A DNA stretch of 64,000 nucleotides from a virus. The translations under genes and the position numbers were made by a program. The stretch is from the IMG/VR virus record IMGVR_UViG_3300022188_000007, positions 62,001 through 126,000 of that record. One strand, 5' to 3'. The notes below the pieces were generated by a model. It saw nothing but the letters and a program-made list of their open reading frames with translations, did not search any database and had not been told where the DNA came from. Positions 9,028-48,422 of the stretch are shown in pieces (within the stretch, counting starts at the first letter, position 1; each line of letters opens with the position of its first letter).

Positions 9028-9780
9028 ATGGTAGAAGAAATTTTTGAAGACAGAAGAAGTTTTACAGGCTCTGATGAAGAGACAGAGTACTTTATTGGAA
9101 CCCCCAGCGCAGAAGATATTCGTGGGGCTGACTGGCAATACAGCAAAGTGTACACTAAATGTTTAACTGAAGGCATCCCCACAAGTGCAGAACTTATGGA
9201 TATTTTGCGGAGACGTGGGGTAATAGGGGACGACTTTGATAGACGTGCACAAGAATTATCAATCACTCTAAACGAACTCATAACTAGATTAAATGGCACA
9301 GAGGTATACAACGACAAAGCTGCTCTAGCGGTAGAAGTTTCTCAAGCCAGAGAAGCTTTATTTCAGTGGAATCAACGTCTTAGTGGTCCTATGAGTAATA
9401 CTTGTGAGCAAATGGCTGATGACGCAAGACTTGAATACCTCACTGCTTGTATTCTACAAAATAAAGATGCTACTAAAGTTTGGGAAGACTATGATAAATT
9501 TTTGGCTTCCACAGATCAAAGTCTAACACTGAAGTCTAGATATGAGGTTATGTTATTCCTACAGGGGTATGAATCTAATTTTCTAGAGAATACACCTGAG
9601 GCTAGAGCTATGAAAGAAGTGGAGACTAGTATTCTACAGGAAGCCGCTGCAGCAGTAGAAGCGGAAGCAGCTGAAAAAATTGCAGAAGAAGCAGCGCTTA
9701 AAAAGAAAGAGAAACCAAAAACTAAGCCAAAAGCTAAAGCAAAAGCTAAAGCCAAAACTAAGCCGGCTGAAAAAAAATAA
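9028..9780 (+). CDS. Probable tail assembly chaperone
   Basis: The protein is 250 aa, mostly helical. Conserved-looking stretches are PSAEDIRGADWQYSKVY (about 31-47), a segment with ELMDILRRRGV, and WNQRLSGPMSNTCEQMADD (about 114-132). It ends in a Lys/Ala/Pro tail (about 215-250) made of repeated KAKAKTK-type units. Genes in this place between tube and tape measure usually encode chaperones that coat the tape measure during tail assembly. The last sense codons lie on an A8 run (9770-9777), a classic -1 slip site, but the -1 frame meets a stop three codons later (9786-9788), so no fusion to the next gene is made. The role is inferred from position and fold type. Confidence 0.55.
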   Translation: MVEEIFEDRRSFTGSDEETEYFIGTPSAEDIRGADWQYSKVYTKCLTEGIPTSAELMDILRRRGVIGDDFDRRAQELSITLNELITRLNGTEVYNDKAALAVEVSQAREALFQWNQRLSGPMSNTCEQMADDARLEYLTACILQNKDATKVWEDYDKFLASTDQSLTLKSRYEVMLFLQGYESNFLENTPEARAMKEVETSILQEAAAAVEAEAAEKIAEEAALKKKEKPKTKPKAKAKAKAKTKPAEKK

Positions 9781-16800: not shown

Positions 16801-19800
16801 TACTGTAGGTAGAATTAAGAAGAGATTAGCTGGTTATAGAGGGAGAGTTAAAGGGATAGTTGGGGAGTCTCCAGGTACTAAACAATTAACTTCTGGTGAG
16901 GTAGGTGAACTTGAAGGTATTTTAAGCACACTATTAGTTACATTAGATCAATCATCTGCCGATGAGAGAATGCTTTATAAGAATCAGCAGCATTTAAAGG
17001 GTGGTACTAGAGGTGATGTTATCAGAGCGTTTAAAGATAATAAATCTGGTGAAGGCAAATCACAGGCCCAAGTTTACCAAACTACTATAGATCAGGCTGT
17101 GGACCAACTTATAGGCCCGCAAGGAAGCCCCGACCCTAAAAATCCTCAGTGGGCCAGTAGGTATGACAAGCAGGCTAATGTATTAGGAGGTAAGGCTTAT
17201 AACGCTGGTCTAGCATCAGTAGAGCAGTTCGCCAAAAGCTTGAATGTACAACCATCTGATTCTGAAGATGACTTAAAGAAAGCCCTTCAATCATTAGAAA
17301 GAGCGAAAATTGAATACTATAATACCTTGGCTACTTCTGCTTTAGGTAAGACAGGTTCAGTACAAGAATTTCTATTTAATAGAAAAATGCCAGCAGTAAT
17401 GGGCAAAGCCATAAATGCTACAGTGGATAAAACAGAGGATCTAGATAATTTTAGTAAAGAACTGCTTTCAATCAGCTCGTCTGCTGGAGGTATAGGGGTA
17501 GATTTAAGTGCTTTAGAGGAAGCCTCTGAAAATATAAAAAAAATAAAAATAGAGCATGCTGAAAATGTGGAGAGTGCGCGTTCTAAAGGGATGCCTGTAT
17601 TAACTCAACATCAAGTTGGTATCCCTGAAAGTTACGCATCTAAGCTACCTACTAACTTTGCTAGAAGGTATGAGGTAGATGGAGGAACCGTACAAGAATT
17701 AAAAAAACCTATTTTTGAAAAATCTAATTTAGCTAAAATGTTGGATTATAGAGAAGAGATACAAGGAGCCCTTGATAATGTAGCCCCCGGTATGCGCTCT
17801 AAGATGGAAGCCTATTTGGAATCAGAGCTTTCTCCTTATTTAGAAAGTATGCGTTTCCCTGTCACAGGTGTAGCGTCTATTCAGCCATATGAAGCCAAGC
17901 TATTAAAACAAGGAGAAGGTCGTCAAATGACCAAACATACTTTAATGGCCCCAGGTATGCCAGAGATAGATATGGGTAAGTTTGATGCAGCTAAAAAACA
18001 AGTTGACTCAGTAATTGACGAACTAACCGAACAAAGAAAACTAGAGTATAAAGAAGAGTCCCCTGATCTGGAAAGAATAAATCAGTTAACTGCTACTATA
18101 GCCGCACTAGATAAGGCTATCTCTGATGTAATTCCTAAGTTTATAGCAGTCCAACAGAATCTAGATTTTGACGGTGATCAGATACAATTACACGCCGCTA
18201 AGACAGCTCTAGCGAGGCAAGAAATTTCACAACACTTTAAAACTATAACTGATTATGATAAGCAGGGAGGCACTACTGCTCAAGCTTTAAGAGACCAATC
18301 CACCTATAAAGCTTTAATACCATCTACAGAGAAATATACTTTAGCAGAACAGCAGATAGCCTTTTCAAAGAAGTTCCCAGAAAAAGAAGGGTTCGGTTTT
18401 ATGACTAAACCTTTCCTTACTGAGGGGCTAGATTATTTAAAACCTCAAGAACAACTAGATATTTTAAGTACTTTTCCTGGAGCTGGTGGAACAGAGAATA
18501 CCCCATTAACTGTTTTAAATAATCTATTACCAGAGCTTTTTAGAAATGAAAAACATATGGCTAAAATTGCCATGACATTGCAGGCAGTAAAACCGGAAGC
18601 CGGTAAAGATACCGCATCCAGTCAAGCGCTATTAAACGCATTAGCAAAAATGAAGCCGGTAGAAGACCAACCCAGTAGTGGTAGAGAAAAGGCCGTATTT
18701 GAAGAAGGTATAAAGACTAAGTTATATGATACTAAAATGACTAATGCTATTAATGCCAACTTTTTTAAACTTAATACCGGACAAGACACTGAAGCTCTGA
18801 ATAGGCAGTTGAAGTTATTTGAAAGAAACTTAGGGTACGGTGGCGGAGTTATACGACAGGGTGCTCAATATGAGCCTACTGCTAATTTAGCAAGTCGTTT
18901 TCCCCTAGACCTTAAATCCATGGGCAACACAATGGGGGAAGAACTACATACCATGATGAATGAGTTTTTACGTGTAGGGGTACAGAAAGGGCTGGATGTA
19001 AAACATGCTGGAGAGACCCCAATTGCTACTGAAATGGCAAATCTAATATCTAAAGGGTCCCCAGGCGTTTCAAGCTTAATAGAAAAGATAAATGCCGGAG
19101 AAGGCTCATACGGCGACCTTACTGATTTTGCAGAGGCAAATAAGAAATCCTTAGGGCGTAGATTAGGTGGTATGTCTACCGAAGATTTGTATCTTGATGC
19201 AGCCAGTATTGCTGGAGGTAGAGGTGAGTCTACTACTAAACTAGATCCAGGTAATAGAGAAGAGCTTAAAGAATACATCACTAAATCTATAGGATTTGAG
19301 GGCTTTCTTCACGAGCTGAGTAATCAAGTAATTGAAGCGGCGCATGAAGGGCTTATGAAGTCAGTTAGTGCTTGGTCCGATACCAAAAAACAAAAAGAAT
19401 TTAAAGGTAGTTCAGCAGAAGACTATGTAAAGGCTTCTATTAGAAAACAACTTAAGGGTGACGGTATTAATATATTGGATTCAGCGGAAAGTCCTCTAAT
19501 GCCTTTATATAAAATGAGGACCTCTGGCGCATCAGGCTATCAACAACGTGGTCTATATCAGGATAAATATGGTGACGTAGAGGCTCCTGAACTCGAAGGA
19601 ATCTTCCAAGGCAAAGAGGCTGATGCTTATGCCGCTAAGTATAAGGAAGCTAAAGCAGTAGCTAAAAATATACAGGATGCTCTTATAGACTTTAGTTCTA
19701 ATAAAGGTGGTAATAAGAAAGGCAGTTATTCAATGCTACTTGAAAGCAGTATAGAGAATATCTACGCTGATCAGAAAGAGATTATGAAGTTAGTACAGGA

Positions 19801-22800
19801 AATGACACTTGAGAAAGATAGAACTTCTTCAAGTGTAATGGATAGATTAAGTGGTGACGCACCTATGCATGGTTTTGCCAGGGAAGCTCTAGGTAAGAAG
19901 AACAGTAAAACTCAGAAAGAATTTCTAGAGAAATATAGTAGAATTGTAGGAGTTCCTAGCCTAGGTCAAGAATCCACAGCACTTCTGAAACAAGAGTATC
20001 TTCCTCAGGCAGCTTTCCTAGCTAATGCAGAGAAGGGGCCAGCACCACTTCAAGGTGAAACTACAGACGGAGCATATCAAGATATATTAGATGCCCATGA
20101 TAAAGCTGTAGATAAGTTAAAAGAACAATATCTAGCGGATGCTATAGTAATAGCTCAAACAGATAATATATTAAAAGCAGCCAAAACTAAAACAGGAGAA
20201 GCAACCTTTTTAACGCAACTACTCCCCACCTCTAAAGGTGATTATGCTAGTAAATCTTATGATGATCGTAGACAACGTATATCTCAAATCGCAAAGGAGA
20301 AAGTCCAAAGAGCTAATTTTGAACAACTCACTCATCCAAGAGGCTTAGAGAGAGATGCTTTTGGCAGATCAATGCCAAGTGGAGGAGGTCCAGGAGGTCC
20401 AGGAGCACTGAGCGTAGGTGGTACAGGGCCAATTGTGGACGTAAATATTGCTAGTGTTGCTGAAGGTGTAGGCGTCTTCCTAGGAAGGGCAGCCGGAATG
20501 GCCAAGACTACTGAGGATACTAGTCCTAGATTTACAATTTCTGAAGAATTAGAAAAAAAATTAGTAAGGGCTGAGGAGATAGTAGATGAGATTACCGGTG
20601 GTTTAAATAAGGCTACAGGTGATAGTTTTGCTAATAAATATAGAGCCAGTGGGTTAAAGGGAGGTCAAGGGCTAGACCAAATAAATGAAATTAAAAAACA
20701 GATGCAGGGCATCAAAGCGGGTAGGAAAGCCCGAGATATTCTAGATTCATCATCTTTACTAGGTACAGGCATTCATGCTAAACTAGAAGATAGTTATAAG
20801 AAGGAGTATATAACAGAGAGACCAGTCAGGTACGACTCAGTAGCTGGAGAAATCTCTGGCACAGTAGATGCAATTAAATATGATGATAATGAGATTGCTA
20901 CTCATATAGTAGATATTAAAACTACAAGTCAAAAGAACTACGACGATTTAAAACAAGCTGTAGCTAGATTCCAAGAAAAAACTGGTAAAGAAACTCCTAC
21001 ACTAGATGAGATAAAAGACTATGTAGGTAAGAATCTAAAAGATAGTAAATTAGGTGATGTAGCCTCTCAGCTGAATCTATATCTTGCTGCCACCAGTGAG
21101 GATGCTAAAGCATCCGCTCATTTCTATAGTAGAACTAACCCTGATCAAGAACCTATTAAGCTAGACCAGTTTTTTGATAAAGAGCGGCTAGATAATGATG
21201 TTGCTGCGGTAGGTCAAGCTAGAAGGGAGATTAAGTTGGAAGGCGGATCATTCGCTAAAACAGCTTCTTATACTGAAGCCGAAGAGATAGAAGTTTTACT
21301 GAAAAAGAAAGAAGTGGCCGAAGCAACTATAGCTGAATTAATAGCTACCAGTACAGAGTATTATACACTAGTAACAAAGCAGGGTCTCCGTGCAAGAAAG
21401 AATCTACCTTCAACAGGCGGCCTATCTGATAAAAGTTTAAATATGATAGGTACACGTGCTAGAGAATTTCAAGCACAGTCTGTTAAATTTGATGATATGG
21501 TTACAGCGAATCCTATAGCTGAAGGTCGAGAGACTTATAAAGTGCATCAGAACCTTAATGTGCTGCATGAGCGTGCTAAATATTTTCAACAAAAAGAGGG
21601 TTATGAAACGTCTGGTCCCCGGTTTGATAAAATGCACCCCCAGATCCAAGAAAGAGTAACGGAGCACGGCGAGAAGGGCCCAGGGGGCGCAGCCTTTAGT
21701 GCCCTAGTGACTGAGCTTAAAGATACTGGTAAAATTGAGGGCGGAGAGATTAATGCAGCATGGAAGGCATACAGATTAGCTGTGGGGGATTACTTTGTTA
21801 AAAAGATGGCTGCTGCAAGAAAGGAATTAGATAATACAGACCCAGGGGCTGATAATATAGTAAATGTTTTCGGTGCCTACCAGAAGTCTGTTCAAGCTTT
21901 TCAGGATTTTGCTAAGCATGGTCTAGGCAAACCTACAGATATTTATACTTATAATAAACAGTACTTACATGCAGAATCTGCAAGAGGGGCCGGAATTTAT
22001 ATGGATTCAGCTGCCCTTCAAAAAAAAGCATCTCAGCCTCTAGGAGAAGACCCCACATTACGTAATATCTTCCAAAATATGACTAATCTAGAGGGCGACT
22101 CGGTACCAATTCCTAGAGATTCTGTTAGGGCAGCATTGGAAGATTTAATGGATATGGATAGATCATTGATTAATCTTTATACAAATGCAGAAAAAGTAGC
22201 CCATATGGGCAAAGATATAAATCTAGGATGGAATTTTGATAAAGTAAAAGGCGGATTATCTAGATTAAGAGCAGCCCTAGACTTACAACTGAAACAACCA
22301 GTAGGTGAGCTTTATAATGAAGATCAGATAACCTATCTTAGAACAGTTTTAAAGGAATTAAAAGGACTGGAGACTATTTATATCAGCCTAGATCTGGATA
22401 CAGACTCTTTTAAGAATCCCACAGGTGAATATAAATTCCCGACTTTAGTTCCTGTACCGAAACAATTATCTAGAGACCAGCAGTCTGCCATGCATTACCA
22501 GAATATTGAAAAAATTAAAGGTCATTATAGAACACCAGAGGCAGAAGGTGGGGCCAGGGAAGGGGATTCCTTTGTTTATAATGCTAAGACTTTCGGGCCT
22601 AGCGGTAAACAGATGGATAACCAGAGATTTGTAATTTCTAAATACGGTGAAGCAATAAATAGTGCAGGGAAGTCTGTTCCAATTCTGAAAAGTAGGCTAG
22701 ATAACTTAAATAAATCCTTAGTGGACGGTAACAGAACTTTCAGTGTTGCTATAGAGAGAGTAGTTAAATGGGGCGCAGCCGCCACACTAGTTTATGGTGG

Positions 22801-31800: not shown

Positions 31801-34273
31801 GAAACAGCTTACTGACTACTGGCAGTCTGTGGGTAAGGCTGCTCCAAGTAAGTTTGCTGATGGAGGGAATGTCGATGAAGAAGAGCCTGTGATTGAGTGG
31901 GGACATACTACTGCTAAAGCTGTCATGGATAAATGGACAGCGGAAGCTAAAGATGCGGCTATGTATAGATCGTTACATGCTATGTCTAGTGCTGAAGATT
32001 TTGCATTAAAATTGGATAGAAATAAAAAAGCTAGAACCGACATGACCAGAATTCTAGCTGATAACGAATACTTAGATAAAGACACCCAAGAAGGGTATGA
32101 TTATTCATTTGATAAACACCGAGGATTAAGAATACTTACTGATGAAGATTCGGGGGTGAAGGTAGGTAGAGTAATTACTAAGTCATATCGTTCTGTAGAT
32201 GAAAGTTATAGACCTAGATCTATGGCAACTGTTAAGAAACAAGTACATGACCCATTTGCTATATCCGAAGATGCTTATTCTTCTGGCGCGCTTACTGATT
32301 TCTCCGAGAGATTATCTCTAGACAGTAACTATGGTAATGAGGCTTTTAGGTACCACGGTGAGGGCCGTGATATATGGAAGAATATGCAACGCTATAAGAA
32401 ATTATTTTATGGCTCTCCGGGTGAAAGTAAAGCATCTGAAGGGTATTTAGCAAAATTTCAAGCAGGCCAAAAGAACCTTGATAAAGTACGTTTAGTGATG
32501 AAGGTTTTAGAAGAAGGTGGTAATATTTATGATGACTCCAGACTTCAACAGAAAGTGGGCGGACCAGCTAGGTTAGAGGCTTTTGATTTTGGAGGTAAGA
32601 AAGGTACTGTAGATATACCTACTAGAAATTTCAAAAGAGCTGAACTACTTAAAGAATTACAAGCGTTATATGGGGATGAATCTCAAGGGGCCATCATTAG
32701 TGCTGAGAGGATAAAGAATGAAATCTCCGCTTTAAACGCGCAGAAAATAGAAACTTCTGATGGTACAGTGGAATACATAAGGGCAGATGAACAGAAATAT
32801 ACGTCTGTTTTACAGGATATTAAAGACGCCGCCGTAATTGCACGAGGTGAGTTAGATCCTAAAGGCAAAAATGCAAGAAGACGGGCTGTTACAAGAGCTC
32901 AGTCCCCTCTATTATATAATTATTCTAATACGCTACGGGACAAAGAATTGGCAAGAGCAGGGTTCCTAAAGCAGACTGGCCCACCGAAAGATTTTTCCGA
33001 CTTCGATAAAAAAGATATTCCAGATATGAAAAAATGGCTGGCTGCTGGAGATTATGGCTATGTAACTAGTGACACAGTGCAACGAATGAAGGACTTTATT
33101 ACGAGTGAGACATACAATGTGGGTGGTGTAGCTACTAGATCTATGCCAGTTAAACATTTTGGCGGTGTGGTAACACAAACTGGCCCAGTATTTGCTCAGA
33201 AAGGTGAATACATTATACCTAAAGGATTTAAAGATGGTACTTCGGGTTTGGGTGGTGTAACCTCCAGTCCAGCTTCCCAAGCTTTAACTTCAGGATCGAT
33301 GAGATTAGATGGTTCTGAGGTATTATCACAATTAAATAGTTTAAGTTTAAAGGTGGATAATACTACGGTTAAGGTAGACACTACTGAGGCAGCAAGTAGA
33401 CTATCATCTTCTATTAGTGATGCTTTTAGTGGTATAGAACCATTTAAAGTAGAAGATAAAACTCTATTAGTAGAAGATAAGGTTTTCTCAGTAGAAGATA
33501 AAAAGTTAACTGTGGAAGATAAAACTTTTACTATTGAAGATAAAACTTTTAAGGTAGAGGATAAAATTTTCTCAGTAGAAGATAAAAAGTTAACTGTGGA
33601 AGATAAAACTTTTACTATTGAAGATAAAACTTTTAAGGTAGAGGATAAAATTTTCTCAGTGGAAGACAAAAAATTAACCGTGGAAGACAAGGTTTTTACT
33701 ATTGAGGATAAGGTTTTTAAGGTAGAGGATAAAATTTTCTCAGTGGAAGACAAAAAATTAACCGTGGAAGACAAGGTTTTTACTATTGAGGATAAGGTTT
33801 TTAAGGTAGAGGATAAAGTACTAACAATAGATGCTTCTAATATTTCAGTAGATATCGGCGATGCAGAGGCTAGATTAGCTTCAGCGATTAGCAATGCGAT
33901 TAGTAGTGCGGTAGTTAATATAAAAGTTGAGGCCCCTACTACTGGAGGGTCAGTCGGCGCGGATAAATTCGATCAGTTAGCCCAAACAGTATCAGATGTA
34001 AACGATAAACTTATAAGTAGTTCTGTGATTATGGAGAGTAGAGTGAAGATTTTAGAAGGGGGTATAGACTTAGTTGTGGATGAAAGCGTGGAAAAAAAAC
34101 TAGCTTCTAAATTGATGAGTATTAATGAAAGTGTAACAGGGGCTCTCTTGAGTGTAGATACTGTAGCTAATAATGTAACCACTCAAATAGATAGTATAAG
34201 ACGTGAGTCTAACGAAATAAAATATCTAGCACATATGGCTTTAAATGCTAGAGGTTCAGGAAATATAACTTAA
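10868..34273 (+). CDS. Giant multidomain tail tape measure protein with RNA polymerase-like and nuclease modules
   Basis: One uninterrupted 7801-codon frame starts at TTG (10868) with AGGGGGG nine bases upstream; an in-frame stop at 10808 excludes a longer start. Residues 1-1300 are helical and coiled, ending in a Gly-rich linker (RPGGGGVG, about 1301-1308). Residues about 1310-3170 contain the RNA polymerase beta-prime-like site (D2433-F-D2435-G-D2437). A second Gly/Pro linker (about 3172-3185) leads to a PD-(D/E)XK nuclease (about 3295-3440). A TP901-type tape-measure core is at about 3965-4200, with hydrophobic segments near 3973, 4303-4318 and 4498-4515. Long helical stretches follow, then tape-measure C-terminal motifs (GGRIFGEGG..LSPGEFVIR at about 6376-6400, several ADGG boxes, GEYIIPKGF), a VEDK heptad array and a helical end. 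It sits after chaperone genes and before hub genes, as tape measures do. The tape measure call is firm; the enzymatic activities are inferred. Confidence 0.9.
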   Translation: MVKKYIFEHASNESKTSSKSGGSKGVAVVELSKSDQANQKKVHDGLREIKEVLKKQTKDTSSSALMRMLEKVIKASGQSSKISSAELKTLATAFANELSRKGFGGSGSATVSGPQGKALDPNIIAKAISNQIAPALKSVFKSLETKDIKIDPKSQEALRKAMESSVSDIIPSKFYKVINDLNSTLTSVLALSKTSLKAFNSAKGMASDKGGLEVKEITGFYTNLKKGSSELKTLVGHISSLVREADKLPAELRAAAKGMIDAAREAKDKTVRGARAVREGAQVPQAKLVKEVTKLLASEIKKHTTGSTNPAVNNLIKALDTFSSSADELTKLTKALDNFGKSIGSLQSDGGVDLKGLQGVLGKLEKTISAIPTEIKGGAVKSDEWKDFIDQANKVINTVKTLVVKIQLPKDEIDRFVKQLPGEFDVVANIDISNVPKAIKEITKPVGIPVKTIFSADDIQRRLRYEHPEISVTQRITTVHKQVEEYQSSKSGKAVKEVSLPNAKSEAVKFSKDLNTSVNNLIKVLEGLSKVHATAYGKPVAQGSAGDIASDRISELIHKIQDKRGNTSQLREYVDKTQGHAHKTGILSQAARDGIKEVYEILHSTTDDVFNSVKKSSDQATKNLESVSKAFDAVNKSSKQMADTAKNNLAQTQPSTIPSSRHGATSVNTARQAPASTQKEVYKYFEGNITPGKTANIDAGKKLNLGEDSRKIVQEHVSGLANSLLDLQSYMVSTLEKEFAKVRKESNSGKDWRIVGKTDTGSISDYFKLTEGYNQKTSGNEYSFKIADVKNLKRVTGSKTNDPTALISKFKEGVFKELLAKNEATIAESIGRWMKRFSESDISSWKGLDSSTARQLADIKSTHDKGQGTAPSKRMVEAIKGLGATDPSALNRIFEKTISDIEATRRLGERKYGSSVLVKKIAIPAAKLSATGAATIDTATGSKRIIPKFATYKTGFEKVFESLQKTKTFDVEQDYQGKVRKLGIRPSGTQFEEANKVAKAMLIDLSRVKDIVNATGQTTVDSGAVRADLAKQLETSVVLKAGKLEKSKHVTSASDVLAKIDKSIYAEFASGTKTMEEFIAATSKAGVSAYDLVKGMESIDFQNIYQIFQKILEGTDSVSSPLKAVGKNPDFSKSVRDLESYIGKMVGTIPIADPSRPRRASHQEKVINLMSMTSPIYSQKGKVGTQGLTAEGQKQFLRDLNLSLREFVRDTAILKDAGMGQGRLPADVRTLSSLGVPESQAGTISEYRKDGRNENTKYLAALNATTVKMYSDSLSEMAPFGAQFQQLGRNISNTTNAMAYRPGGGGVGTDFPSLRSERETKLISGGRYGDKGYGFNVIAELRNTASTFEDQIVISGKLADVLTSVTKTIVQPDKLGRLNLVGSDGQVSSSQEGRVGDIKPDQQLIGAIETANKVFQDVLGVKQEYRGRADNALIKEVTSALTTVRGKDVQVQSAKIAETFFNHYGRKFTTRYGSKGVSITAPGGTGELTGKQLKDLYADKKVKVLSKSERATAGLGTVALPKSMGQLVQEIYKEYAKELGLSNADLDESRKALINSGNKFMLSMFTDSSLGVVPEGKDVKAQQTLFTKTKKALAKLDFDLAKDISGIEGLIEVYKGMDGSKLYEEKPIDIRISSHGIAKRGLQAENLEAIMNNVIDAGVAGSTSLKTKFDPSTYKRLLGTEEDTTGKFPSLSEISKALGFESQGNPKKRGLLVKDMMKLLKSRNVPGTEDKLLAQAGKLADLEIGSSFYSDMRDEFGKSRKSLIGPKFVEVIEDPNANPAWSETDIKKQVAGQKINIPAFGAYATVFGEQSQFIKQMTSSIPLDSKKHWEYLKALQVLNDDSSEMATQLLSSAQEVDVSSLRTFTKSTGKFVSRASMSNITEMPEEDQERVLNDTILDIAKFPGAMNLKIPSTKDPSKRESFYVPGALARTTYPEPSLAGERGLDMTARRLQAVVNAAKNVDEVAGQSDESGSKKLWNTVGRIKKRLAGYRGRVKGIVGESPGTKQLTSGEVGELEGILSTLLVTLDQSSADERMLYKNQQHLKGGTRGDVIRAFKDNKSGEGKSQAQVYQTTIDQAVDQLIGPQGSPDPKNPQWASRYDKQANVLGGKAYNAGLASVEQFAKSLNVQPSDSEDDLKKALQSLERAKIEYYNTLATSALGKTGSVQEFLFNRKMPAVMGKAINATVDKTEDLDNFSKELLSISSSAGGIGVDLSALEEASENIKKIKIEHAENVESARSKGMPVLTQHQVGIPESYASKLPTNFARRYEVDGGTVQELKKPIFEKSNLAKMLDYREEIQGALDNVAPGMRSKMEAYLESELSPYLESMRFPVTGVASIQPYEAKLLKQGEGRQMTKHTLMAPGMPEIDMGKFDAAKKQVDSVIDELTEQRKLEYKEESPDLERINQLTATIAALDKAISDVIPKFIAVQQNLDFDGDQIQLHAAKTALARQEISQHFKTITDYDKQGGTTAQALRDQSTYKALIPSTEKYTLAEQQIAFSKKFPEKEGFGFMTKPFLTEGLDYLKPQEQLDILSTFPGAGGTENTPLTVLNNLLPELFRNEKHMAKIAMTLQAVKPEAGKDTASSQALLNALAKMKPVEDQPSSGREKAVFEEGIKTKLYDTKMTNAINANFFKLNTGQDTEALNRQLKLFERNLGYGGGVIRQGAQYEPTANLASRFPLDLKSMGNTMGEELHTMMNEFLRVGVQKGLDVKHAGETPIATEMANLISKGSPGVSSLIEKINAGEGSYGDLTDFAEANKKSLGRRLGGMSTEDLYLDAASIAGGRGESTTKLDPGNREELKEYITKSIGFEGFLHELSNQVIEAAHEGLMKSVSAWSDTKKQKEFKGSSAEDYVKASIRKQLKGDGINILDSAESPLMPLYKMRTSGASGYQQRGLYQDKYGDVEAPELEGIFQGKEADAYAAKYKEAKAVAKNIQDALIDFSSNKGGNKKGSYSMLLESSIENIYADQKEIMKLVQEMTLEKDRTSSSVMDRLSGDAPMHGFAREALGKKNSKTQKEFLEKYSRIVGVPSLGQESTALLKQEYLPQAAFLANAEKGPAPLQGETTDGAYQDILDAHDKAVDKLKEQYLADAIVIAQTDNILKAAKTKTGEATFLTQLLPTSKGDYASKSYDDRRQRISQIAKEKVQRANFEQLTHPRGLERDAFGRSMPSGGGPGGPGALSVGGTGPIVDVNIASVAEGVGVFLGRAAGMAKTTEDTSPRFTISEELEKKLVRAEEIVDEITGGLNKATGDSFANKYRASGLKGGQGLDQINEIKKQMQGIKAGRKARDILDSSSLLGTGIHAKLEDSYKKEYITERPVRYDSVAGEISGTVDAIKYDDNEIATHIVDIKTTSQKNYDDLKQAVARFQEKTGKETPTLDEIKDYVGKNLKDSKLGDVASQLNLYLAATSEDAKASAHFYSRTNPDQEPIKLDQFFDKERLDNDVAAVGQARREIKLEGGSFAKTASYTEAEEIEVLLKKKEVAEATIAELIATSTEYYTLVTKQGLRARKNLPSTGGLSDKSLNMIGTRAREFQAQSVKFDDMVTANPIAEGRETYKVHQNLNVLHERAKYFQQKEGYETSGPRFDKMHPQIQERVTEHGEKGPGGAAFSALVTELKDTGKIEGGEINAAWKAYRLAVGDYFVKKMAAARKELDNTDPGADNIVNVFGAYQKSVQAFQDFAKHGLGKPTDIYTYNKQYLHAESARGAGIYMDSAALQKKASQPLGEDPTLRNIFQNMTNLEGDSVPIPRDSVRAALEDLMDMDRSLINLYTNAEKVAHMGKDINLGWNFDKVKGGLSRLRAALDLQLKQPVGELYNEDQITYLRTVLKELKGLETIYISLDLDTDSFKNPTGEYKFPTLVPVPKQLSRDQQSAMHYQNIEKIKGHYRTPEAEGGAREGDSFVYNAKTFGPSGKQMDNQRFVISKYGEAINSAGKSVPILKSRLDNLNKSLVDGNRTFSVAIERVVKWGAAATLVYGGLSYIKDAVKHMSDVETAMARLQMVMNPLTTDFDSLQKAALGFAKQYGVETTDVLGSMKVFAQQGLSQGEVEERTQTSTLAANVTTLSAVDATEALTAAMKVFRAEGESSMRFLDSWSQVEARAAITAGDLADAIKKSASAGRNAGFTFDELNGMVAAIGSTTRQTGKEVGTSLRFIFRRISADKGPKALKGVGVATTTPKGTLRPGYKVLEDLAGKWEELEQAQKLSIAQAIGGTRQYNQVLVLMDNWDQVVKSTTDSMNAKGSAERRNLKLMKTYSKQLEQTKAVFSALKVEVGKVVLPSFKAGLTGIRGLVEAVNNVPASFKLAGAGMVLFVGYITKGAEALNTIMSLVDRTKLSFSALKDDFSKGIDKGMFEVFGKGTPELDSDLFGLSKLSDTGTVNIDDMESSLGKLAFGALSAGQAFNKFAGIVGSDSASAVSAVGKYVTAFGALVEKTGTGISLIPGIPGPVDEAVGVATSFTGKAIKGTGGAFDFVGDKVGKGAQSWMEGFASQNTSAMKSMAPLLGTLGGIALLAPTIIDAFKNLTQSATDYKDEQLNRLEVDAKEIDSLQGLITSYKNLQDQKEKITRLSDPKVQAKGIKRGEYKSPILEKIDALKATRTFDSNLGAMDPSMIAGFDEFGRVILSNTANLTGYLEELKRAKTVTLALSKLKIAARFTDDLTETGGNQEWKQQVKSLAAEFPLIGEMLAKNITVGPKKALEVIREELDQLLAAKAEAPMSTAFDSDIERSLTAHAKVLKTFSATYAELGKTLSSISTEGATVTDIADLYKSPDALKTFDLQAAYEDKYQIAEVRGTVSGRDIAASKVLRTQSSGLGSYIEASSVLTEANLFSAGRLPRKPKKDGTIGASDNDLVTLNKNFAEKYGIATGQATLKIGKDHKLFLEFIDALTTTPTTKEFSQAEIEAAARAFFPVDEILQKAQISVTKLNTFVAGASAGILGVSEKKLNTRQFDLGERFYDQIPTNVLLQTEKGYNTKTGTFGKQDYKEDYSSDFIDKYYDPLQKYNTAKSALGGDNASLDASVLGGLAEQLRGLQDILKNNSIAFQYRAAIEDLNKALYEGARATRKSILVEQERQKVDKHTAGFMRGKTKGVASIDQGVTNYKDLNDQQRASLMFKDYDALAKKILVQETSIEGLIGQSKSVASTYADIQEIGKAPEGFDAIMTRGRNVELMSIMDKVDNDKGAAQISMRVSELKSPLEGILANTDIMAANTYGRPGDIKRAAATAEENLVIAEQRKLAGKGPLDNTVDNKTDPVKTFKSLQKLMTIRDAAAKEGDTVTVRALDNTLADSYGRALKVYGMKDFARLTKLVAPTKFFSSNNKELVASRASALAQKGIGTTPDRMMQSIESAKMAKAALRTQSFIDKLTAFKAPEKEIERAKNRQWYVPSKEVRDYEKAYATDPSKPLINPKIFEKALIAGAILPAFQGKSLGEKRTTIEDQINRLQKQKDNYPKEGKEAEKLGIDKKIEGYQKILTDDLDPQQFVTSTLQGLSTTALAAYEGVGIFGGSQSDKENMAAVGAGLFVIMKSLESRIGKDNMPQYFKDFSKEAVDKIKIAVETGDYSDMANDLGKKTKKFLKGFNKSMEAQTEKAEDAGIDPEKDIRERRKRLKKLNATLDLESTTKSLNEVTDVGSNNLLRGLEAIAVVMTAQAVGGWKSKKGETAARVKDGVNVAKQQGLASLAYSEKNAAAVDAYIGKLVLTQKELAEKKGPDGGAINIVMDVMEDFKTSLTLAAAEGKTLEEAMSGLQDKIGDTKVFTGIYTDVAKLIGAMENFRAELQKSFTTFDDKRLLDPTRSLKGELLGFGGETTLPIGRRDMSTQQRAYAGGSDSLRSSFAVMSKGILIQEAQIKTLGFVRSQIADTEQNIDFGTKYGTSDSQLEAWEMHLKGLEGTLANLQNVTTLTSQQLQALGTSMRGAIKYSEAINKLNDALADVSVEHAVTGITGLKTYFDSFEVLLGGSDPLAAQPVSPEQERMGAKVGVRLVSGESTSMDIERAQLLTEIKNATDSKSRTAASIKLGDLDEKYRRLGIDKEQQVENQRLGSTMKPYEDFYRNMEGLLGSNELNDKQYGEISGVKNEFKEAMKRATEKIPIDEAIAQLEGQKDNLGANQFKEAMKELVAMKATGTTQVYRGMDRTKDWQGIMSRVMAGYDKEIDAYKAATGTTDLDTSLENMVTNPLVNVIGMSNLLLAELVTHFVDKKTAADILNGPQKKELEPDYLFSSIVPDKKVVLAEAQDFLKGISINPADNLKTQPYDFNNDNIDPNRGRPTLFGRPVGPISKDALGLPPIQDKVVPPPPTEVELAAKKHPRFKEMETYVKNISLDPIANLKTEPFGPNSEQDNSQIVAVNELQLVTLKKIATSLSSNGSGDSTEPTTKAAGGRIFGEGGPREDKVPAYLSPGEFVIRAAAAQRLGYENLDVMNKKGQVPVAFESGGSLNQRHITQAHQYFVDPDAVLPPEFNPESELYNKGITGKYIDLRKSMLSEEQREAVAGISTLKGLYNTFSDMAGNDEDKLNSLFPEDIMPVMERFEENKKAQEEKGILGWMKGKLKTKNKATAGARAVTGLDKAELLKEISTYADGGRTISTVTGKPIPTAEETEEGMAKMREALGFVASVGHPITSIPTSIYGMYQGFKEKGLSAQPAVEGFGGLELLNYIPQAKRLGKMKTILSKGFGRYFDNAGDVNDYFDITGKLGGKLTSSHGDDFDALLASENTFEEGGLSLWDKLLGKQFDPTERWKGKKLPSGMGKFDKPEVTKKLEDEIKATKRHDVHSFSFLREKHGFVKALQLYGAGSRLQEGADILKKADGGKIRSFIGDSTGVAEVGEELFNERINAPVLTRSVASMIKSEFGTSDVGNNQLGAPVDKLMGTSFDPSATMLKDSRAFTAVGNNIKSYASTADFNTGRAKSDKLKGNIGKGNIIPGMDGLTSIYDGFLTSKYNSPFLSQEEQSNNRAWYEATREQEITNKQKYELLGDAKTDADRKQLTDYWQSVGKAAPSKFADGGNVDEEEPVIEWGHTTAKAVMDKWTAEAKDAAMYRSLHAMSSAEDFALKLDRNKKARTDMTRILADNEYLDKDTQEGYDYSFDKHRGLRILTDEDSGVKVGRVITKSYRSVDESYRPRSMATVKKQVHDPFAISEDAYSSGALTDFSERLSLDSNYGNEAFRYHGEGRDIWKNMQRYKKLFYGSPGESKASEGYLAKFQAGQKNLDKVRLVMKVLEEGGNIYDDSRLQQKVGGPARLEAFDFGGKKGTVDIPTRNFKRAELLKELQALYGDESQGAIISAERIKNEISALNAQKIETSDGTVEYIRADEQKYTSVLQDIKDAAVIARGELDPKGKNARRRAVTRAQSPLLYNYSNTLRDKELARAGFLKQTGPPKDFSDFDKKDIPDMKKWLAAGDYGYVTSDTVQRMKDFITSETYNVGGVATRSMPVKHFGGVVTQTGPVFAQKGEYIIPKGFKDGTSGLGGVTSSPASQALTSGSMRLDGSEVLSQLNSLSLKVDNTTVKVDTTEAASRLSSSISDAFSGIEPFKVEDKTLLVEDKVFSVEDKKLTVEDKTFTIEDKTFKVEDKIFSVEDKKLTVEDKTFTIEDKTFKVEDKIFSVEDKKLTVEDKVFTIEDKVFKVEDKIFSVEDKKLTVEDKVFTIEDKVFKVEDKVLTIDASNISVDIGDAEARLASAISNAISSAVVNIKVEAPTTGGSVGADKFDQLAQTVSDVNDKLISSSVIMESRVKILEGGIDLVVDESVEKKLASKLMSINESVTGALLSVDTVANNVTTQIDSIRRESNEIKYLAHMALNARGSGNIT
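17852..19020 (+). other. RNA polymerase beta-prime-like catalytic barrel inside the tape measure protein
   Basis: NLDFDGDQIQLH (residues 2431-2442) matches the universal beta-prime active-site signature NADFDGDQMAVH at N, D, F, D, G, D, Q and H; the three Asp are the magnesium ligands of two-barrel RNA polymerases. Upstream, MRFPVTG places R2329-x-P2331 like the R-x-P of the beta-prime NRAPT element. The R-to-D distance is 104 instead of about 35, explained by a charged helical insert of about 60 residues. Downstream, LDVKHAGET (K2712) resembles the K-x-G-type segment that follows in single-chain enzymes of the YonO and crAss-like virion polymerase group. The beta-like barrel with its lysines was not located with certainty. 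The domain is bounded by Gly-rich linkers. Confidence 0.7.
20750..21180 (+). other. PD-(D/E)XK (RecB/Cas4-like) nuclease domain inside the tape measure protein
   Basis: All signature elements appear in order and spacing: G-T-G-I-H3303 helix, SGTVD3334 (first Asp), HIVD3349-I-K3351-T (the D-x-K pair), and a helix with Q3401-L-N-L-Y3405. This H, D, DxK, QxxxY set is that of RecB/Cas4/lambda-exonuclease-related DNA nucleases and looks catalytically intact. It begins about 120 residues after a Gly/Pro linker that ends the polymerase-like module and lies about 560 residues before the tape-measure core. Possible jobs are host DNA attack on entry or processing of the phage genome end; neither is shown by the sequence. 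Confidence 0.8.
22760..23560 (+). other. TP901-type tape measure core domain
   Basis: A hydrophobic segment (KWGAAATLVYGGLSYI) leads into MSDVETAMARLQMV (from residue 3989). The conserved features of phage tail tape measure domains follow: a FAKQYGV helix, TLAANVTTLSAVDATEAL, KKSASAGRNAGFTFDELNGM, TTRQTGKEVGTSLRFIFRRI and LSIAQAIGGTRQYNQV. This is the most recognisable part of the giant protein and fixes its identity as a tape measure. Confidence 0.9.
33443..33832 (+). repeat. Tandem VEDK heptad array (21-bp units in 84-bp higher-order blocks)
   Basis: About nineteen 7-residue units of the form x-[FL]-x-[VI]-E-D-K lie near the C-terminus of the tape measure protein. Four 28-residue blocks (33482-33565, 33566-33649, 33650-33733, 33734-33817) each run FSVEDK, LTVEDK, FTIEDK, FKVEDK. 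Blocks 1 and 2 differ only at their first base and blocks 3 and 4 are identical, while the pairs differ at many silent sites and some residues. This shows recent local duplication on top of an older one. The units probably form beta strands or a solenoid. Confidence 0.95.
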
Positions 34274-40370: not shown

Positions 40371-41351
40371 ATGGCACTAAACATTGATACTCAGGATCTT
40401 GAAAATTTTCCTGGAACAACAAAAAGAATTACAATCGATTTAAGTAGTATAGTCCCGATAGGGGCTGAAGGGGATGAAAAGTTTGTATTAAGTACAGTAA
40501 CTAACTCTTATAGTGATAATGAGGAGCGTACAGGTATACAAGATCTTTATGTGACTAATATGACTGCAGGTTGGTGTAAAAGCTCAGGGTTTGCTGGCTC
40601 TTCAGGTAAGTTTTATTTAGATGATACGCATAAAAGCCTAAAGGTACGGATGGACGCTACAGTGAGCGGGACAGATGGTAGTGGTTTTTATACTGTAGAT
40701 CTGACTCCCAATGATGATGATACTCCGGTGTCAGGGGAAGTAGTAGCAGCTGAATTAGAAACAAAGATAAGGGCTGTAAGTGATGTTATTGATCCTATTG
40801 ACGCTGGGTTTTCTACCGCGTATAGAAATGCCTCTGTGGAATATAAAAATGGTAAATTCTGGATAGTTTCTGGAAGTATCAGTAATTATTACTCAGGCAA
40901 CCTAAGATCTTCGGTAGTTATTAAAGCAGCAACCGCTAACGATTGTGCTCAAGTTTTAGGGTTTGATCTTCCTACTACAAGTTTTGATTTATCTAACGTA
41001 GCAGTTAAAGAAACTCTATTAAACTCAGGATACACTGCTGATACAGATACATTGAGTGTAAATACTGGTACGGGAGCTTCAGCTGGTATGGCTTTTATGA
41101 TCACTGATGGCACTAACACTGAATATTTTACAGCGTTGTCAGGAACCACTGATTCTAGTATTAAAGTGGCTACTTTAGGAACCAATGCCTATACCGGAAT
41201 AGAAAATTCCTATGGAGCTAATTCTGCTAAGTTACAATTAATGAAGGAACAAGACCCTGAAAGTGTACCTACTAATTGGTATACTTCTATTGATCAATTG
41301 GTTCGTTATGGTATAAAGGCATTGGCAAGTCAAATAGATTACAGTAGTTAA
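40371..41351 (+). CDS. Virion structural protein with an LGF-type beta module
   Basis: This 326-aa protein has a strong AGGAGG site. The middle (about 130-210) has AELETKIR, then VEYKNGKFWIVSGS, then SSVVIKAATANDCAQVLGFD. This helix, strand, strand and LGF order recurs in phage tail and fibre proteins, and a version occurs in the gene at 61645. The C-terminal helix (WYTSIDQLVRYGIKALASQI) may mediate assembly. I considered a tail sheath, but the size and missing sheath features argue against it. Confidence 0.45.
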   Translation: MALNIDTQDLENFPGTTKRITIDLSSIVPIGAEGDEKFVLSTVTNSYSDNEERTGIQDLYVTNMTAGWCKSSGFAGSSGKFYLDDTHKSLKVRMDATVSGTDGSGFYTVDLTPNDDDTPVSGEVVAAELETKIRAVSDVIDPIDAGFSTAYRNASVEYKNGKFWIVSGSISNYYSGNLRSSVVIKAATANDCAQVLGFDLPTTSFDLSNVAVKETLLNSGYTADTDTLSVNTGTGASAGMAFMITDGTNTEYFTALSGTTDSSIKVATLGTNAYTGIENSYGANSAKLQLMKEQDPESVPTNWYTSIDQLVRYGIKALASQIDYSS

Positions 41352-41370: not shown

Positions 41371-41793
41371 ATGAAGATACATAAGTTTTGGAACACACTC
41401 TGCATTGATTTGGACTATAGATTTTTTTCAGGTATCCCTATAGTGGATTTTAAGTTAATGTATGACTCTATGGATGTAGAATTCTTACACTTTGTCCCAA
41501 CTTTAGATGAAGTATTAGCGCTAGGATTAGTCAGTGGGATTAAGTTATCAGGGACAGAAGGGGCCGTAGTAATGAGTGCCAAAGCCTTTGATGTACTTAA
41601 GCCTCAATTTGATGGATTTAATAAAGTTTTTAGTGTACCTATACTATTTATTGTTGAAAATGATTACAATCCTTTAGGATTGCATCAAGCTGTATTGAAA
41701 GATGATGCTAATGTCATCAATAAATTAGTAGCATATATTAACAGTAGCAATGAATCAGCAATTTTAGTAATTAAAGGAGGGACACTGACATGA
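41371..41793 (+). CDS. TPP-enzyme Pyr-domain-like protein (ComD / sulfopyruvate decarboxylase alpha-like)
   Basis: This 140-aa protein has the pattern of the Pyr domain of two-subunit TPP-dependent 2-oxoacid decarboxylases: FFSGIPIVDFKLM (about 18-30), VPTLDEVLALGLVSGIKLSG (about 42-61) and SVPILFIVENDYNPLGLHQ (about 88-106). E47 falls where these enzymes keep the Glu that activates the TPP ring. The QNSGLGN stretch of true enzymes is replaced (MSAKAFDVL). The next gene, overlapping by ATGA, resembles the matching PP subunit, and the order and sizes match ComD/ComE. A working decarboxylase is doubtful. A structural protein derived from the fold is more likely. The family link was read by eye. 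Confidence 0.6.
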   Translation: MKIHKFWNTLCIDLDYRFFSGIPIVDFKLMYDSMDVEFLHFVPTLDEVLALGLVSGIKLSGTEGAVVMSAKAFDVLKPQFDGFNKVFSVPILFIVENDYNPLGLHQAVLKDDANVINKLVAYINSSNESAILVIKGGTLT

Positions 41794-42431
41794 CTATGAC
41801 TAGGAAAAAGATTCTAAATGGTATAGCCGCTTTGGTATTTGATACTGATATTGTTTTTTGTATTGGTAATACGTTATGTAGGGAAGCTCCAAAATTCACA
41901 GAGACTACTGTTTTTTTAGGTGATAATTTTACTGATTTTTTCTCAGTAATTACTGGAGTAGCGATGACGACCGATAAACGTGTGCTTGTTATAGTGGAAG
42001 ACCAGTATCTGTTAAGATATTTTAACTCTATTCTTCAAGCAGCAGTAAGTAAATGCACTAATTTATTTATAATAGTTGTAGTTACGTCTCTATATGAGGC
42101 ATTAGTAACTCAACCTAACTTATTTAAGGCATTAAGATCTATTAAAGGCATATTATTTAATTCAGGGATGTTAACTCATGAGTATACTAGGTATTTGGAA
42201 ACTAAAGCTTCAATTAAACAGTTGAAAGATATATACTATAATACTATGGGGCCGGTAGTAGGTTTAGTAGCTGTGTCGAGTAATAGGTTATATAATATTA
42301 ATTCTGATAGTATTTTTACAGAAGAGTTGGATACAATAAGTGAATTTATACAGAATAAAGAAATAGAGACTTCAATTCCAGAAGAGAAGCGTAGGGTACT
42401 AGATTTAGATAAAATCATGAAGGTGAAATAA
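41790..42431 (+). CDS. TPP-enzyme PP-domain-like protein (ComE / sulfopyruvate decarboxylase beta-like)
   Basis: This 213-aa protein follows ComE-type subunits along most of its length. It has IVFCIGNTLCRE (start strand and helix), TTVFLGDNFTDFFSVITGVA (about 39-58), DKRVLVIVEDQYLL (about 62-75), CTNLFIIVVVTSLYEALVTQ (about 89-108) and a C-terminal strand (GPVVGLVAVSSNR). In active enzymes the VIxGDG...N segment binds magnesium-TPP. Here GDG is E70-D71-Q72 and the Asn is lost (VTSLY), so cofactor binding is probably impaired or gone. The last 40 residues are charged and helical. It sits between tail structural genes, so it likely serves as a virion or assembly protein. Confidence 0.65.
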   Translation: MTMTRKKILNGIAALVFDTDIVFCIGNTLCREAPKFTETTVFLGDNFTDFFSVITGVAMTTDKRVLVIVEDQYLLRYFNSILQAAVSKCTNLFIIVVVTSLYEALVTQPNLFKALRSIKGILFNSGMLTHEYTRYLETKASIKQLKDIYYNTMGPVVGLVAVSSNRLYNINSDSIFTEELDTISEFIQNKEIETSIPEEKRRVLDLDKIMKVK

Positions 42432-42950
42432 ATGGCACATATTTTAGTTAAAAATAGTTTAAGTAATTATAAGGCAGTGTTAGTTGACATTAATTTTCCT
42501 ATAACTGTAACAACTGATTCTGCAGGTGACCCTCAGTGGGTTTTAGAAACTGCTTCTACATACCCATCTGCTAGTGGTACTAAGATCAGACCGGCTTATG
42601 CACATAAAGCTACAGCATTTAATAGTCTAGATGACGCAGTTGCTGATGCTATATCAGAGATTGCTAAGCAAATTGATTGGCTTCCTTTAGTGGAGGATGA
42701 TACTCCTCCATATATATCAGATATAAGGCCTTTAGGTGGTGCTGTTTCAATAGCTTCTAATATTAATATAGATATAAAGGACGATGTTCCTTCAGCCGGC
42801 ATAGATTTATCAGAAGTAAAGGTAACACTGACTACAGAGAATACTGAATTTGATATTACAGATGAATGTGTTATGGATGGAGATCCTTTTTATTATAATA
42901 TACATTGGGAACCTCCTACTAGGGTAACAAGAAATTATAAACAGGAGTAA
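42432..42950 (+). CDS. Tail protein with Ig-like C-terminal domain
   Basis: This 172-aa protein has a helix at about 65-80 (DDAVADAISEIAKQIDWLP). An Ig-like strand series follows: PPYISDIRPLGG, ASNINIDIKDD, GIDLSEVKVTL. The PPYISDIRP...SNINIDIKDD pattern is common for Ig-like domains of phage fibres and reappears in the C-terminal part of the 992-aa protein. The start follows the upstream TAA by one base. It is probably a small fibre or adaptor at the tail tip. Confidence 0.45.
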   Translation: MAHILVKNSLSNYKAVLVDINFPITVTTDSAGDPQWVLETASTYPSASGTKIRPAYAHKATAFNSLDDAVADAISEIAKQIDWLPLVEDDTPPYISDIRPLGGAVSIASNINIDIKDDVPSAGIDLSEVKVTLTTENTEFDITDECVMDGDPFYYNIHWEPPTRVTRNYKQE

Positions 42951-45443: not shown

Positions 45444-48422
45444 ATGTTTGAAAATATAAGGGTTAACAACCCTAACTTTTGTATAGGCCCACAAACTGGA
45501 ACGTATTGTTCAGTGGATTCAGATAATGACCCAGTAGTCATGCATGTAAGGAATGATAACGGGGAGTTAATAAGAACATATGGATTTTATGAGCCAGGGA
45601 TATTAGAATCAGGCCCTTATGAATATGAGGATGACACGCCCATTAGTTCTACGGGTTATTTCTATAATGAGTTTGTTACCATTAAATATATTGGCCCAAA
45701 GGACCAAGATTCTTATTTTGACGGTGCAGTATTTTATACATTAGAAAGACGTGCCAAAGTGTATAGAGAATTTTATACTTTTGAACGTGAGATGGATGTA
45801 GAAGGTCATCCATATGAACTAATAGATCCGGTTAAACCTGAAAATATAGATGATATAGTATTACCTCGCCCCACTCCTTATGAGGCCTATAATCTTAATG
45901 AAGCTCTAGGTTACCTACCTACAGATGACCATCCAGAATACAGTAGTAATATAATACGTAGATGGGTACTTGACGAAGCTAACGCCAGGTTAGTTTTAAA
46001 TTCTACCACAATAAAAAACTCAAATGACACGGATTGGTTTGGCGGAGACGCTTTTGCGGTACTACATACTGTATCTCCTATGACAGATCATACCGCGAAA
46101 GGCTCAGGCCAAATTTCTATCCCCACCACAACCACTTCAGGTCTAAAAAAATATGACACAATAATGTTAGGTCCCTCTGCTGATCAAGATAATGTTGGTG
46201 AGATAGAGGAAGTTTATGTACATAGTATAGATGGAGAAACAGTTGTAGTTAAGACTTATGAGGGATATATTCCTCCCAAGTACGACTATATGGAAGGTGA
46301 TTCTGTAACCACCTTTGGGGATATCCTTTTGTTTGGAAATACCAGGCCTGTAATTAACGAGATTCAGGTCGAATACACTACAGCTACGTCATTTGGTACA
46401 TTATTTCATTTAGACCAGACTAATTATGGGGAAGTTTCCCATAGAGAATATAGTGGGGTGTATGGTGACATACACGCCGCAGTTTGGAATGTGTATATGA
46501 ATACACTTAGTTTTGTTAAAGGTACAAATTTATTTCATATGGATATAGATGATTATGAAATAACCAGGTCACAGAATTTAGGTTTAGAGTACCCCGTTAC
46601 GAATGAATTAATAGTATTGTATGATCTAGATATAAAAGATGTGACTATCTATAGATTACAAGATGAGGTCATAAAAAAAGATGACTCGGGGCAATACGCT
46701 AAAGTAGGTTGGGACACTTATAATTACCATGCGGATTCTTTATTACCTTATTCTTTTTCTATAGCTTTACAGGCAGATAAAAATGTTTTGATGGTCGCTA
46801 ATAGATCCAATATCACTGCTACTGTAAGAGATCAATTCGGTGTAGGGCTTATTAATAAAAATATATGGTTCACCACTGAAGGTGATGCCGGAGCAGTAAT
46901 ACAGCCTGTAGACGGGTATGGACAGTCAGACCCCGATGGTCAAGCCTTTTTAATATATGATTCTGGCTATAATTCACAAGCACAAGTACAAATTAAAGTT
47001 GTAGTGGATGGCGGAAACATCACTTACGGCACCTCTTTTGTTAATGGGGTTATAAATTTAACTCAACATAATGAGTTCCTGACGGAAATGCAAGCAGTAA
47101 ATATAAATGATTTTTCTAGTGGATGCGCTGTACTTACTAAGAAGTACTTAATACCCTCTCAAGTTAAGGGTGCCCCAGTCCAGCGCCAAACCACAGTTCC
47201 AGCCTGTGATGGAACCATAGCGCTTAAACAAGTTGTTTCTTTTATGTTCCCAAGAAATGACCTATTAATGGAGGAGGATTGGCCGGATTATGGGGATCTT
47301 CTTAAGTACCCTTTTTTAATAAAACTACACGCTGAACCTGATATGCACCGAATCTTGCCCGGACTTATAGATGTAGAAGGTTTTTACAATGAATGTAGCA
47401 GCATGGCGGTAACTGTTATTAAATTGTTACTATGTAGTAATGATAGGGAGGAGAGTTACCTTAATATACCTGCTATTTCTGAGGGATTTTCTGAACATTA
47501 TCTCAGTCAAAACTATATTAGTAGGCATTTATTATATGGACACACTGCTATTGTATCATTAGACCAGTTTACTTTTGTACAAGAAGCAGTTCCAGCTATG
47601 TGGTCTGAGAAGAATAATGTGACCACCGATTACTGGATTAGGCTTCGCCCTTTTGCTAGTGATTTGGACCCTACTACTCTTGTAATAAAATTTAAGGAAG
47701 AGTCTTACTTAGGAATGGGAGAATGGTATGAGGTGACTATAGATGGGGTAATAACTATGTTTGATGCTGGAGGAGGATTAAATGGTATTGATTTTTATTA
47801 TATACCTCCAGTTGTTTTTCATCATAACGCAATTGTATATGTTTCTATTGAAGTATATGACACTTCTAATATACCAAATAAAATTTTAGTAGATTACTGG
47901 TTTAAATTAATACCTGATTTTAAAGCTCCTCATTTAGACAAGTATTTCCCAGCAATAGAAGAGCCCGAAGCTAATATCAACACACCTATTACATTTGATT
48001 GTTTAGATGTGGGTGAGGGTGTAGATATTGATACTTTAGAGATATTTGTTAATAATAGATCAACTACATTTGAGTACAATGAGTTTGAACCAGGGAACTA
48101 CCATATTACATGTAATCTTTCTTATATTTTTTATTACGGTCAGACAGTTAACGTGGTAGTTGATGTAAAAGATAGATCAGCTAATTCTAATAGATTGTTT
48201 GATGGTTGGAAATTTTTTATTACAGAAAGTTCCACACCTTGGTTTAATATGAATAACACAGAGCCTCGCCGTTGTATAGAGGGTCTTCGTAGAGACCAAG
48301 ATGTGTCTTTACAAGTTTATGGTGTAGATGACACTGGGATTAAATATGATAGTTTAAGACTAGAAGTTGGAGGTCGTTATAGAACTATTAAGATAATACC
48401 TATTGTCTATAGATTAAGCTAA
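45444..48422 (+). CDS. Long tail fibre-like protein with Big_1 and further Ig domains (paralog 3 of 3)
   Basis: This is a 992-aa protein. Residues 1-435 correspond to the N-terminal region of the two preceding genes. A Big_1 domain follows at about 440-530 (TATVRDQFGVGLINKNIWF). The C-terminal 450 residues are unique to this copy. They include a Trp/Phe-rich region with LLLCSNDREESYL and at least two Ig-like domains (ANINTPITFDCLDVGEGVDI and YGQTVNVVVDVKDRSANSNR). No catalytic motif is evident. It probably forms the long distal part of a fibre that carries the other two paralogs. Confidence 0.55.
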   Translation: MFENIRVNNPNFCIGPQTGTYCSVDSDNDPVVMHVRNDNGELIRTYGFYEPGILESGPYEYEDDTPISSTGYFYNEFVTIKYIGPKDQDSYFDGAVFYTLERRAKVYREFYTFEREMDVEGHPYELIDPVKPENIDDIVLPRPTPYEAYNLNEALGYLPTDDHPEYSSNIIRRWVLDEANARLVLNSTTIKNSNDTDWFGGDAFAVLHTVSPMTDHTAKGSGQISIPTTTTSGLKKYDTIMLGPSADQDNVGEIEEVYVHSIDGETVVVKTYEGYIPPKYDYMEGDSVTTFGDILLFGNTRPVINEIQVEYTTATSFGTLFHLDQTNYGEVSHREYSGVYGDIHAAVWNVYMNTLSFVKGTNLFHMDIDDYEITRSQNLGLEYPVTNELIVLYDLDIKDVTIYRLQDEVIKKDDSGQYAKVGWDTYNYHADSLLPYSFSIALQADKNVLMVANRSNITATVRDQFGVGLINKNIWFTTEGDAGAVIQPVDGYGQSDPDGQAFLIYDSGYNSQAQVQIKVVVDGGNITYGTSFVNGVINLTQHNEFLTEMQAVNINDFSSGCAVLTKKYLIPSQVKGAPVQRQTTVPACDGTIALKQVVSFMFPRNDLLMEEDWPDYGDLLKYPFLIKLHAEPDMHRILPGLIDVEGFYNECSSMAVTVIKLLLCSNDREESYLNIPAISEGFSEHYLSQNYISRHLLYGHTAIVSLDQFTFVQEAVPAMWSEKNNVTTDYWIRLRPFASDLDPTTLVIKFKEESYLGMGEWYEVTIDGVITMFDAGGGLNGIDFYYIPPVVFHHNAIVYVSIEVYDTSNIPNKILVDYWFKLIPDFKAPHLDKYFPAIEEPEANINTPITFDCLDVGEGVDIDTLEIFVNNRSTTFEYNEFEPGNYHITCNLSYIFYYGQTVNVVVDVKDRSANSNRLFDGWKFFITESSTPWFNMNNTEPRRCIEGLRRDQDVSLQVYGVDDTGIKYDSLRLEVGGRYRTIKIIPIVYRLS

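Follow-up and report, generated by a model that had tools for sequence, protein, structure and literature searches.

Why would a phage carry, among the genes of its tail, two adjacent genes that resemble the subunits of a TPP decarboxylase, and would their products still act as an enzyme? The question arises from a window of 64,000 nucleotides (positions 62001–126000 of the 144,485-bp IMG/VR virus record IMGVR_UViG_3300022188_000007), in which the two genes, here called alpha and beta, occupy adjoining positions. Most safely stated, they form a maintained, co-translated PYR/PP pair without a canonical TPP site. The features on which the argument draws are as follows, in window coordinates.

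10868–34273, + strand: giant tape-measure gene, 7801 aa (PF10145, E 2.2e-27; phrog_4211, E 3.5e-82)
40371–41351, + strand: upstream flanking gene, 326 aa, family unknown, adjoining the pair in 4/4 phages
41371–41793, + strand: alpha gene, PYR-domain (ComD/RhiE-type) homologue, 140 aa (profile search, hhalign, fold search)
41509–41511, + strand: codon of E47, the predicted TPP-activating Glu of alpha
41790–41793, + strand: ATGA 4-bp overlap of the alpha stop and the beta start
41790–42431, + strand: beta gene, PP-domain (ComE/RhiF-type) homologue, 213 aa (profile search, hhalign, Foldseek)
41997–42005, + strand: codons of E70-D71-Q72 of beta, in place of GDG
42084–42086, + strand: codon of T99 of beta, at the position of the metal-ligand Asn
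42432–42950, + strand: downstream flanking gene, 172 aa, family unknown, beginning immediately after the beta stop codon

The two genes are tightly packed and resemble cellular comDE operons in layout. Both open reading frames named in the sequence-only reading are real (140 and 213 aa), and its claim that they follow ComD and ComE in order and size holds for the order; for lack of an active-site segment, alpha falls ~25 residues short of ComD. Gaps of 19 bp before alpha and 0 bp after beta leave no space for a promoter or terminator belonging to the pair, and a consensus scan found sites no more frequently than in shuffled sequence. Judged by the ATGA overlap, translational coupling of alpha and beta is likely. 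The same 4-bp overlap occurs in two of the three phage relatives of the pair (3/4 phages with the query) and in cellular comDE.

These relatives come from three further IMG/VR contigs of uncultured phages that also carry the pair (L001, L007 and L008; n = 4 with the query). Identity to the query is 56% for alpha and 61% for beta in L001, 41% and 43% in L007, and 43% and 43% in L008. It was the upstream flanking gene that led to L007 and L008, each of which then proved to carry the pair at the same site; both genes are thus present, in the same order, in 4/4 phages having that flanking gene. An INPHARED search returned no relative of the pair and nothing significant, and no close cellular or prophage relative turned up among 84,980 prokaryote genomes scanned. 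A strict DNA motif for the canonical ComE loop, perhaps too strict, was found in 0 viral contigs. One distant INPHARED match, MT836947.1, was rejected as a phage relative. It is labeled "Bacteriophage sp." in GenBank and looks bacterial: its genes include one for a YidC-like protein and a full phosphonate operon of the aepX/aepY/aminotransferase type, with canonical aepY. The four phage records, which are possibly fragments, contain neither a PEP mutase nor another TPP_enzyme_C domain, which argues against a phosphonate pathway; pathway genes may still lie elsewhere in the genome, outside these records.

Alpha and beta are PYR and PP homologues of ComD/ComE (RhiE/RhiF)-type TPP decarboxylases. 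All four alpha proteins match TIGR03845 and/or TIGR03297 (E 7e-5 to 0.06), all four beta proteins match TIGR03846 (E 1.5e-5 to 0.002), and the family matched is always that of the subunit predicted by gene order. These scores, 13–25 bits against curated cut-offs of 148–312, are below the equivalog threshold, and a Pfam search of single alpha and beta sequences returned nothing. Family-level comparison is far stronger. Against alignments of 15 cellular references (nine two-gene pairs and six fused phosphonopyruvate decarboxylases), hhalign matched the phage alpha family to ComD/Ppd-N at E 1.3e-11 (score 71.9, alpha residues 15–138) and the phage beta family to ComE/Ppd-C at E 2.4e-9 (score 64.0, beta residues 3–189). 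Cross-subunit controls, alpha against the beta references and the reverse, were negative (E about 0.5), and 150 column shuffles per subunit reached maxima of only 21.3 for alpha and 24.1 for beta. Identity between phage and cellular subunits is only 14–18%. In searches of the PDB, the alpha profile found RhiE (9iz3) at E 5.9e-11, and beta gave chance matches only by sequence or profile. The AlphaFold2 model of beta is of middling confidence (mean pLDDT 66, core about 80), and its Foldseek matches below E 1e-3 are TPP enzymes; the TM-score to RhiF is 0.70. The alpha model is of low confidence (pLDDT 50); its top two PDB fold matches are the RhiEF chains, RhiE at E 0.006. We take this fold evidence as supportive only, the homology of alpha being drawn from sequence. 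The profile and structure searches suggested by the sequence-only reading thus found similarity to both subunits and TPP-enzyme folds, in agreement with the ComD/ComE-type identity that it had proposed.

The cofactor site has been rebuilt in all four phages. Of the columns on which at least 90% of the references agree, alpha keeps P23, E47, G56 and G61 in 4/4 phages and lacks Q69, R98 and G99 (the RG motif; a lone G stands at the G99 column in L007 only), and a stretch of ~20 residues after I94 that is present in relatives has been deleted. Beta keeps G26, G56, A58, D71 and G126 in 4/4 phages and lacks the MG loop. Its GDG is replaced by E-D-(Q/Y/S), with E and D invariant in 4/4, and its metal-ligand Asn by Thr (T99), again in 4/4. 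The loop of L007 beta reads SGGQPT where cellular proteins read TGGQPT, and is a vestige of the ancestral one. Two earlier claims hold on this comparison: that the Glu of the PYR half is retained, E47 being invariant across the four phages and the cellular references, and that GDG...N has become EDQ without the Asn, a change that is read directly from E70-D71-Q72 and T99 and is common to all four phages. In TPP enzymes the first Gly of GDG packs against the cofactor diphosphate, and a fixed Glu at this position would therefore argue against normal TPP-Mg binding. The canonical TPP site is lost. Retention of E47 and D71 is weak evidence for activity, because 24% of all alpha columns and 23% of all beta columns are invariant. 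Special conservation of the pocket loops in the phages was tested and is unsupported: the conservation of these loops does not significantly exceed that of the remainder in either protein (p 0.29 and 0.19).

Loss of the canonical site has not been accompanied by decay of the genes. Alpha and beta are intact in all four phages, free of frameshifts and constant in length within a few residues, and dN/dS is about 0.3–0.4 or lower where computable, with synonymous sites near saturation. Both genes are under purifying selection, which together with the intact frames rules out pseudogene decay. Within a 19-gene block, no genes are less conserved than the pair when L001 or L007 is compared, and against L008 the pair ranks among the least conserved. 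The upstream flanking gene, at 85/74/74% identity (L001/L007/L008), is among the most conserved of the block, and the downstream flanking gene stands at 81/56/67%. The pair thus has a maintained function and is changing faster than most of the surrounding tail genes. Beta residues 54–94 form its best conserved core (19/41 invariant columns against 30/172 elsewhere, p 2e-4 for a segment picked post hoc), which we take to be the region of the interface helices in relatives.

The setting of the pair is a tail gene cluster. Genes surrounding it are all on one strand, and the tape-measure gene upstream places it among tail genes. Putative terminase, portal and major capsid genes, as read from translations, lie further upstream, outside the window. 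The same genes flank the pair in 4/4 phages, so its position in the cluster is fixed. Neither alpha nor beta matches a known tail protein family (no Pfam match and no significant PHROG match). Placement in a tail cluster, the last main element of the sequence-only reading, is borne out by the pair lying downstream of the tape-measure gene (PF10145) on the same strand and without promoter space. Its overall interpretation accordingly stands in part: ComD/ComE identity, departure from GDG...N and tail-cluster location are upheld by profiles, four-phage alignment and synteny, and the alpha size match is not; the virion part that it raised is a candidate role.

Several other features of the record are worth recording. 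The tape-measure protein contains NLDFDGDQIQLHA (window 18152–18232), which recalls the NADFDGD metal motif of multisubunit RNA polymerase; the RNA_pol_Rpb1_2 match there (E 0.0056) is under the curated cut-off, and a PDB sequence search with the 500 aa around this stretch found no match. The same gene includes a Cas4-like PD-(D/E)XK nuclease segment (window 20756–20950; phrog_1706, E 8.3e-5), so that delivery of enzymes into the cell by this polyprotein is possible, and the C-terminal part of the protein contains tandem repeats of about VEDKxFTIEDK (window 33200–33890). Related zinc-ribbon/HNH-like proteins occur amid the structural genes at window 3913–4785 and, in the coordinates of the record (G000), at 46876–47577 and from 61349 onward, the last of which may extend into the window start; judged from their translations, they are probably homing endonucleases. 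Outside the window, the protein encoded at G000 11388–12047 begins with a signal and has at its C-terminus a PEP-CTERM-like sorting motif (VPEPTTLVLLGCGLLFIASLYRKK), which is unusual in a phage and may be a hint at the host. Also outside the window, a protein at G000 8956–9600 resembles QueC (7-cyano-7-deazaguanine synthase type) in its N-terminal SGGFDSTC motif, making DNA or RNA base modification possible.

Our leading interpretation, for and against which we find the balance about even, is that the pair is a non-canonical, exapted ComDE heteromer serving the tail or its assembly. On this view, a forebear of these phages would have captured a two-gene ComD/ComE-type TPP decarboxylase. Alpha and beta would still be co-translated and would most likely still assemble through the ancestral PYR/PP interface, and rebuilding of the cofactor pocket would have cost them the usual TPP-Mg binding and, presumably, catalysis. 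The heteromer, translated from the late tail transcript, may now be a protein part, either a tail tip/baseplate component or an assembly factor. This interpretation is supported by the pocket changes fixed in 4/4 phages, by the same site and order in four phages together with purifying selection and a one-strand tail cluster, by the lack of another TPP_enzyme_C domain or a PEP mutase, and by the high conservation of beta 54–94. Invariance of E47 and D71, which an active enzyme would need, counts weakly against it. A role in the tail or its assembly is suggested by gene position only. Low conservation relative to most neighboring tail genes is easier to square with an assembly factor, or with a component that evolves fast, than with a core tail protein, and the lowest conservation in the block counts against a core tail part. 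We treat as tentative, and somewhat doubtful, the more specific proposal that a two-subunit TPP decarboxylase fold has become tail-tip/baseplate building material in which a conserved E-D...T site replaces the cofactor site.

The main rival, which we consider unlikely, is a still-active enzyme of changed chemistry, in which the E-D...T site would bind a metal or another phosphorylated ligand, the substrate would be a component of the cell envelope or of the phage, and expression would be late because the activity is needed late. Its attraction is that E47, D71, E70 and T99 are invariant despite 41–61% identity among the four phages, that the two subunits always occur together under purifying selection, and that a related split TPP pair, LumK/LumL, has unusual substrates (PMC12746152). 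Such an enzyme would, however, have to do without both GDG glycines, the Asn, the MG loop, the RG motif and ~20 PYR active-site residues, and it would lack both significant extra conservation of its pocket loops and nearby pathway genes. An ordinary auxiliary metabolic gene, that is, a working phosphono- or sulfopyruvate decarboxylase, would explain the weak TIGR03846, TIGR03845 and TIGR03297 matches as well as the comDE-like two-gene order with its ATGA overlap. We regard it as very improbable: bit scores fall far below the curated cut-offs, the canonical TPP motif is missing in 4/4 phages, the four records hold no PEP mutase, and the position in the tail operon is fixed. The motif changes go most of the way to refuting it.

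A different role would be that of an effector or decoy, with one or both proteins mimicking a subunit of a host ComDE/TPP enzyme, mixing with the enzyme and poisoning it, or being ejected with the genome into the cell. Fast evolution beside conserved tail genes is as expected of host-interacting proteins, and an inactivated pocket would suit a dominant-negative subunit. We nevertheless think this distinctly improbable, since one subunit would suffice and yet both are kept, co-expression with late tail genes would come late for host takeover, and the low identity to cellular subunits makes mixing with host subunits unlikely. Finally, two unrelated small alpha/beta proteins might resemble these subunits by chance, as could be argued from the weak single-sequence profile matches and from the lack of a Pfam or PDB sequence match for beta. 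To this we assign practically no weight: chance resemblance is refuted by the hhalign scores with their negative cross-subunit controls and shuffles, by a fold search that returns TPP enzymes, and by the L007 loop with its near-identity to the cellular one.

Comparison with known systems places the exapted-heteromer interpretation in context. ComD/ComE sulfopyruvate decarboxylase (TIGR03845/TIGR03846) shares with the phage pair its subunit order, the 4-bp overlap and weak, consistent profile matches; the phage proteins differ in scoring far under the cut-offs, in lacking the canonical TPP motif and in having no coenzyme M genes seen alongside. RhiEF phosphonopyruvate decarboxylase of Bacillus subtilis ATCC6633 (PDB 9IZ3/9IZ4) is likewise encoded by adjacent PYR (RhiE) and PP (RhiF) genes, and RhiE is the best PDB match of alpha in both sequence and fold. 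RhiEF binds TPP at the subunit interface and decarboxylates phosphonopyruvate, whereas the phage pair lacks the GDG, Asn, MG loop, RG motif and ~20 residues, and RhiEF lies in a biosynthetic cluster whereas the phage genes lie among tail genes. ComD/ComE and RhiEF are split, ancestral-type TPP decarboxylases, with ComD/ComE regarded as living examples of the ancestral split enzyme (PMC12141560). Other viral TPP folds found in BFVD with Foldseek are transketolase-like proteins of Campylobacter phages IBB35 and CP21 and the acetolactate synthase of giant viruses; these belong to different TPP subfamilies from the phage pair, and the single strong match has E 7.8e-4. In the literature, as far as our incomplete coverage reaches, we found no description of a pair of this kind among phage tail genes.

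Retention of both subunits while the cofactor site was rebuilt would show an obligate two-chain enzyme redirected to another use, and the phage pair offers a heteromer small enough to be tested. Chemistry so far unassigned would be encoded in a late phage operon if the pair is an active enzyme. If it is a tail part, the known range of enzyme-to-virion exaptation would widen to tailed phages and a TPP enzyme of two subunits. In eukaryotic viruses, inactivated host enzymes are reported to have been exapted to structural roles. The idea is the same, that of an enzyme losing its site and becoming a virus part; here the enzyme is a two-subunit TPP decarboxylase, the virus a tailed phage, and the structural role a candidate one.
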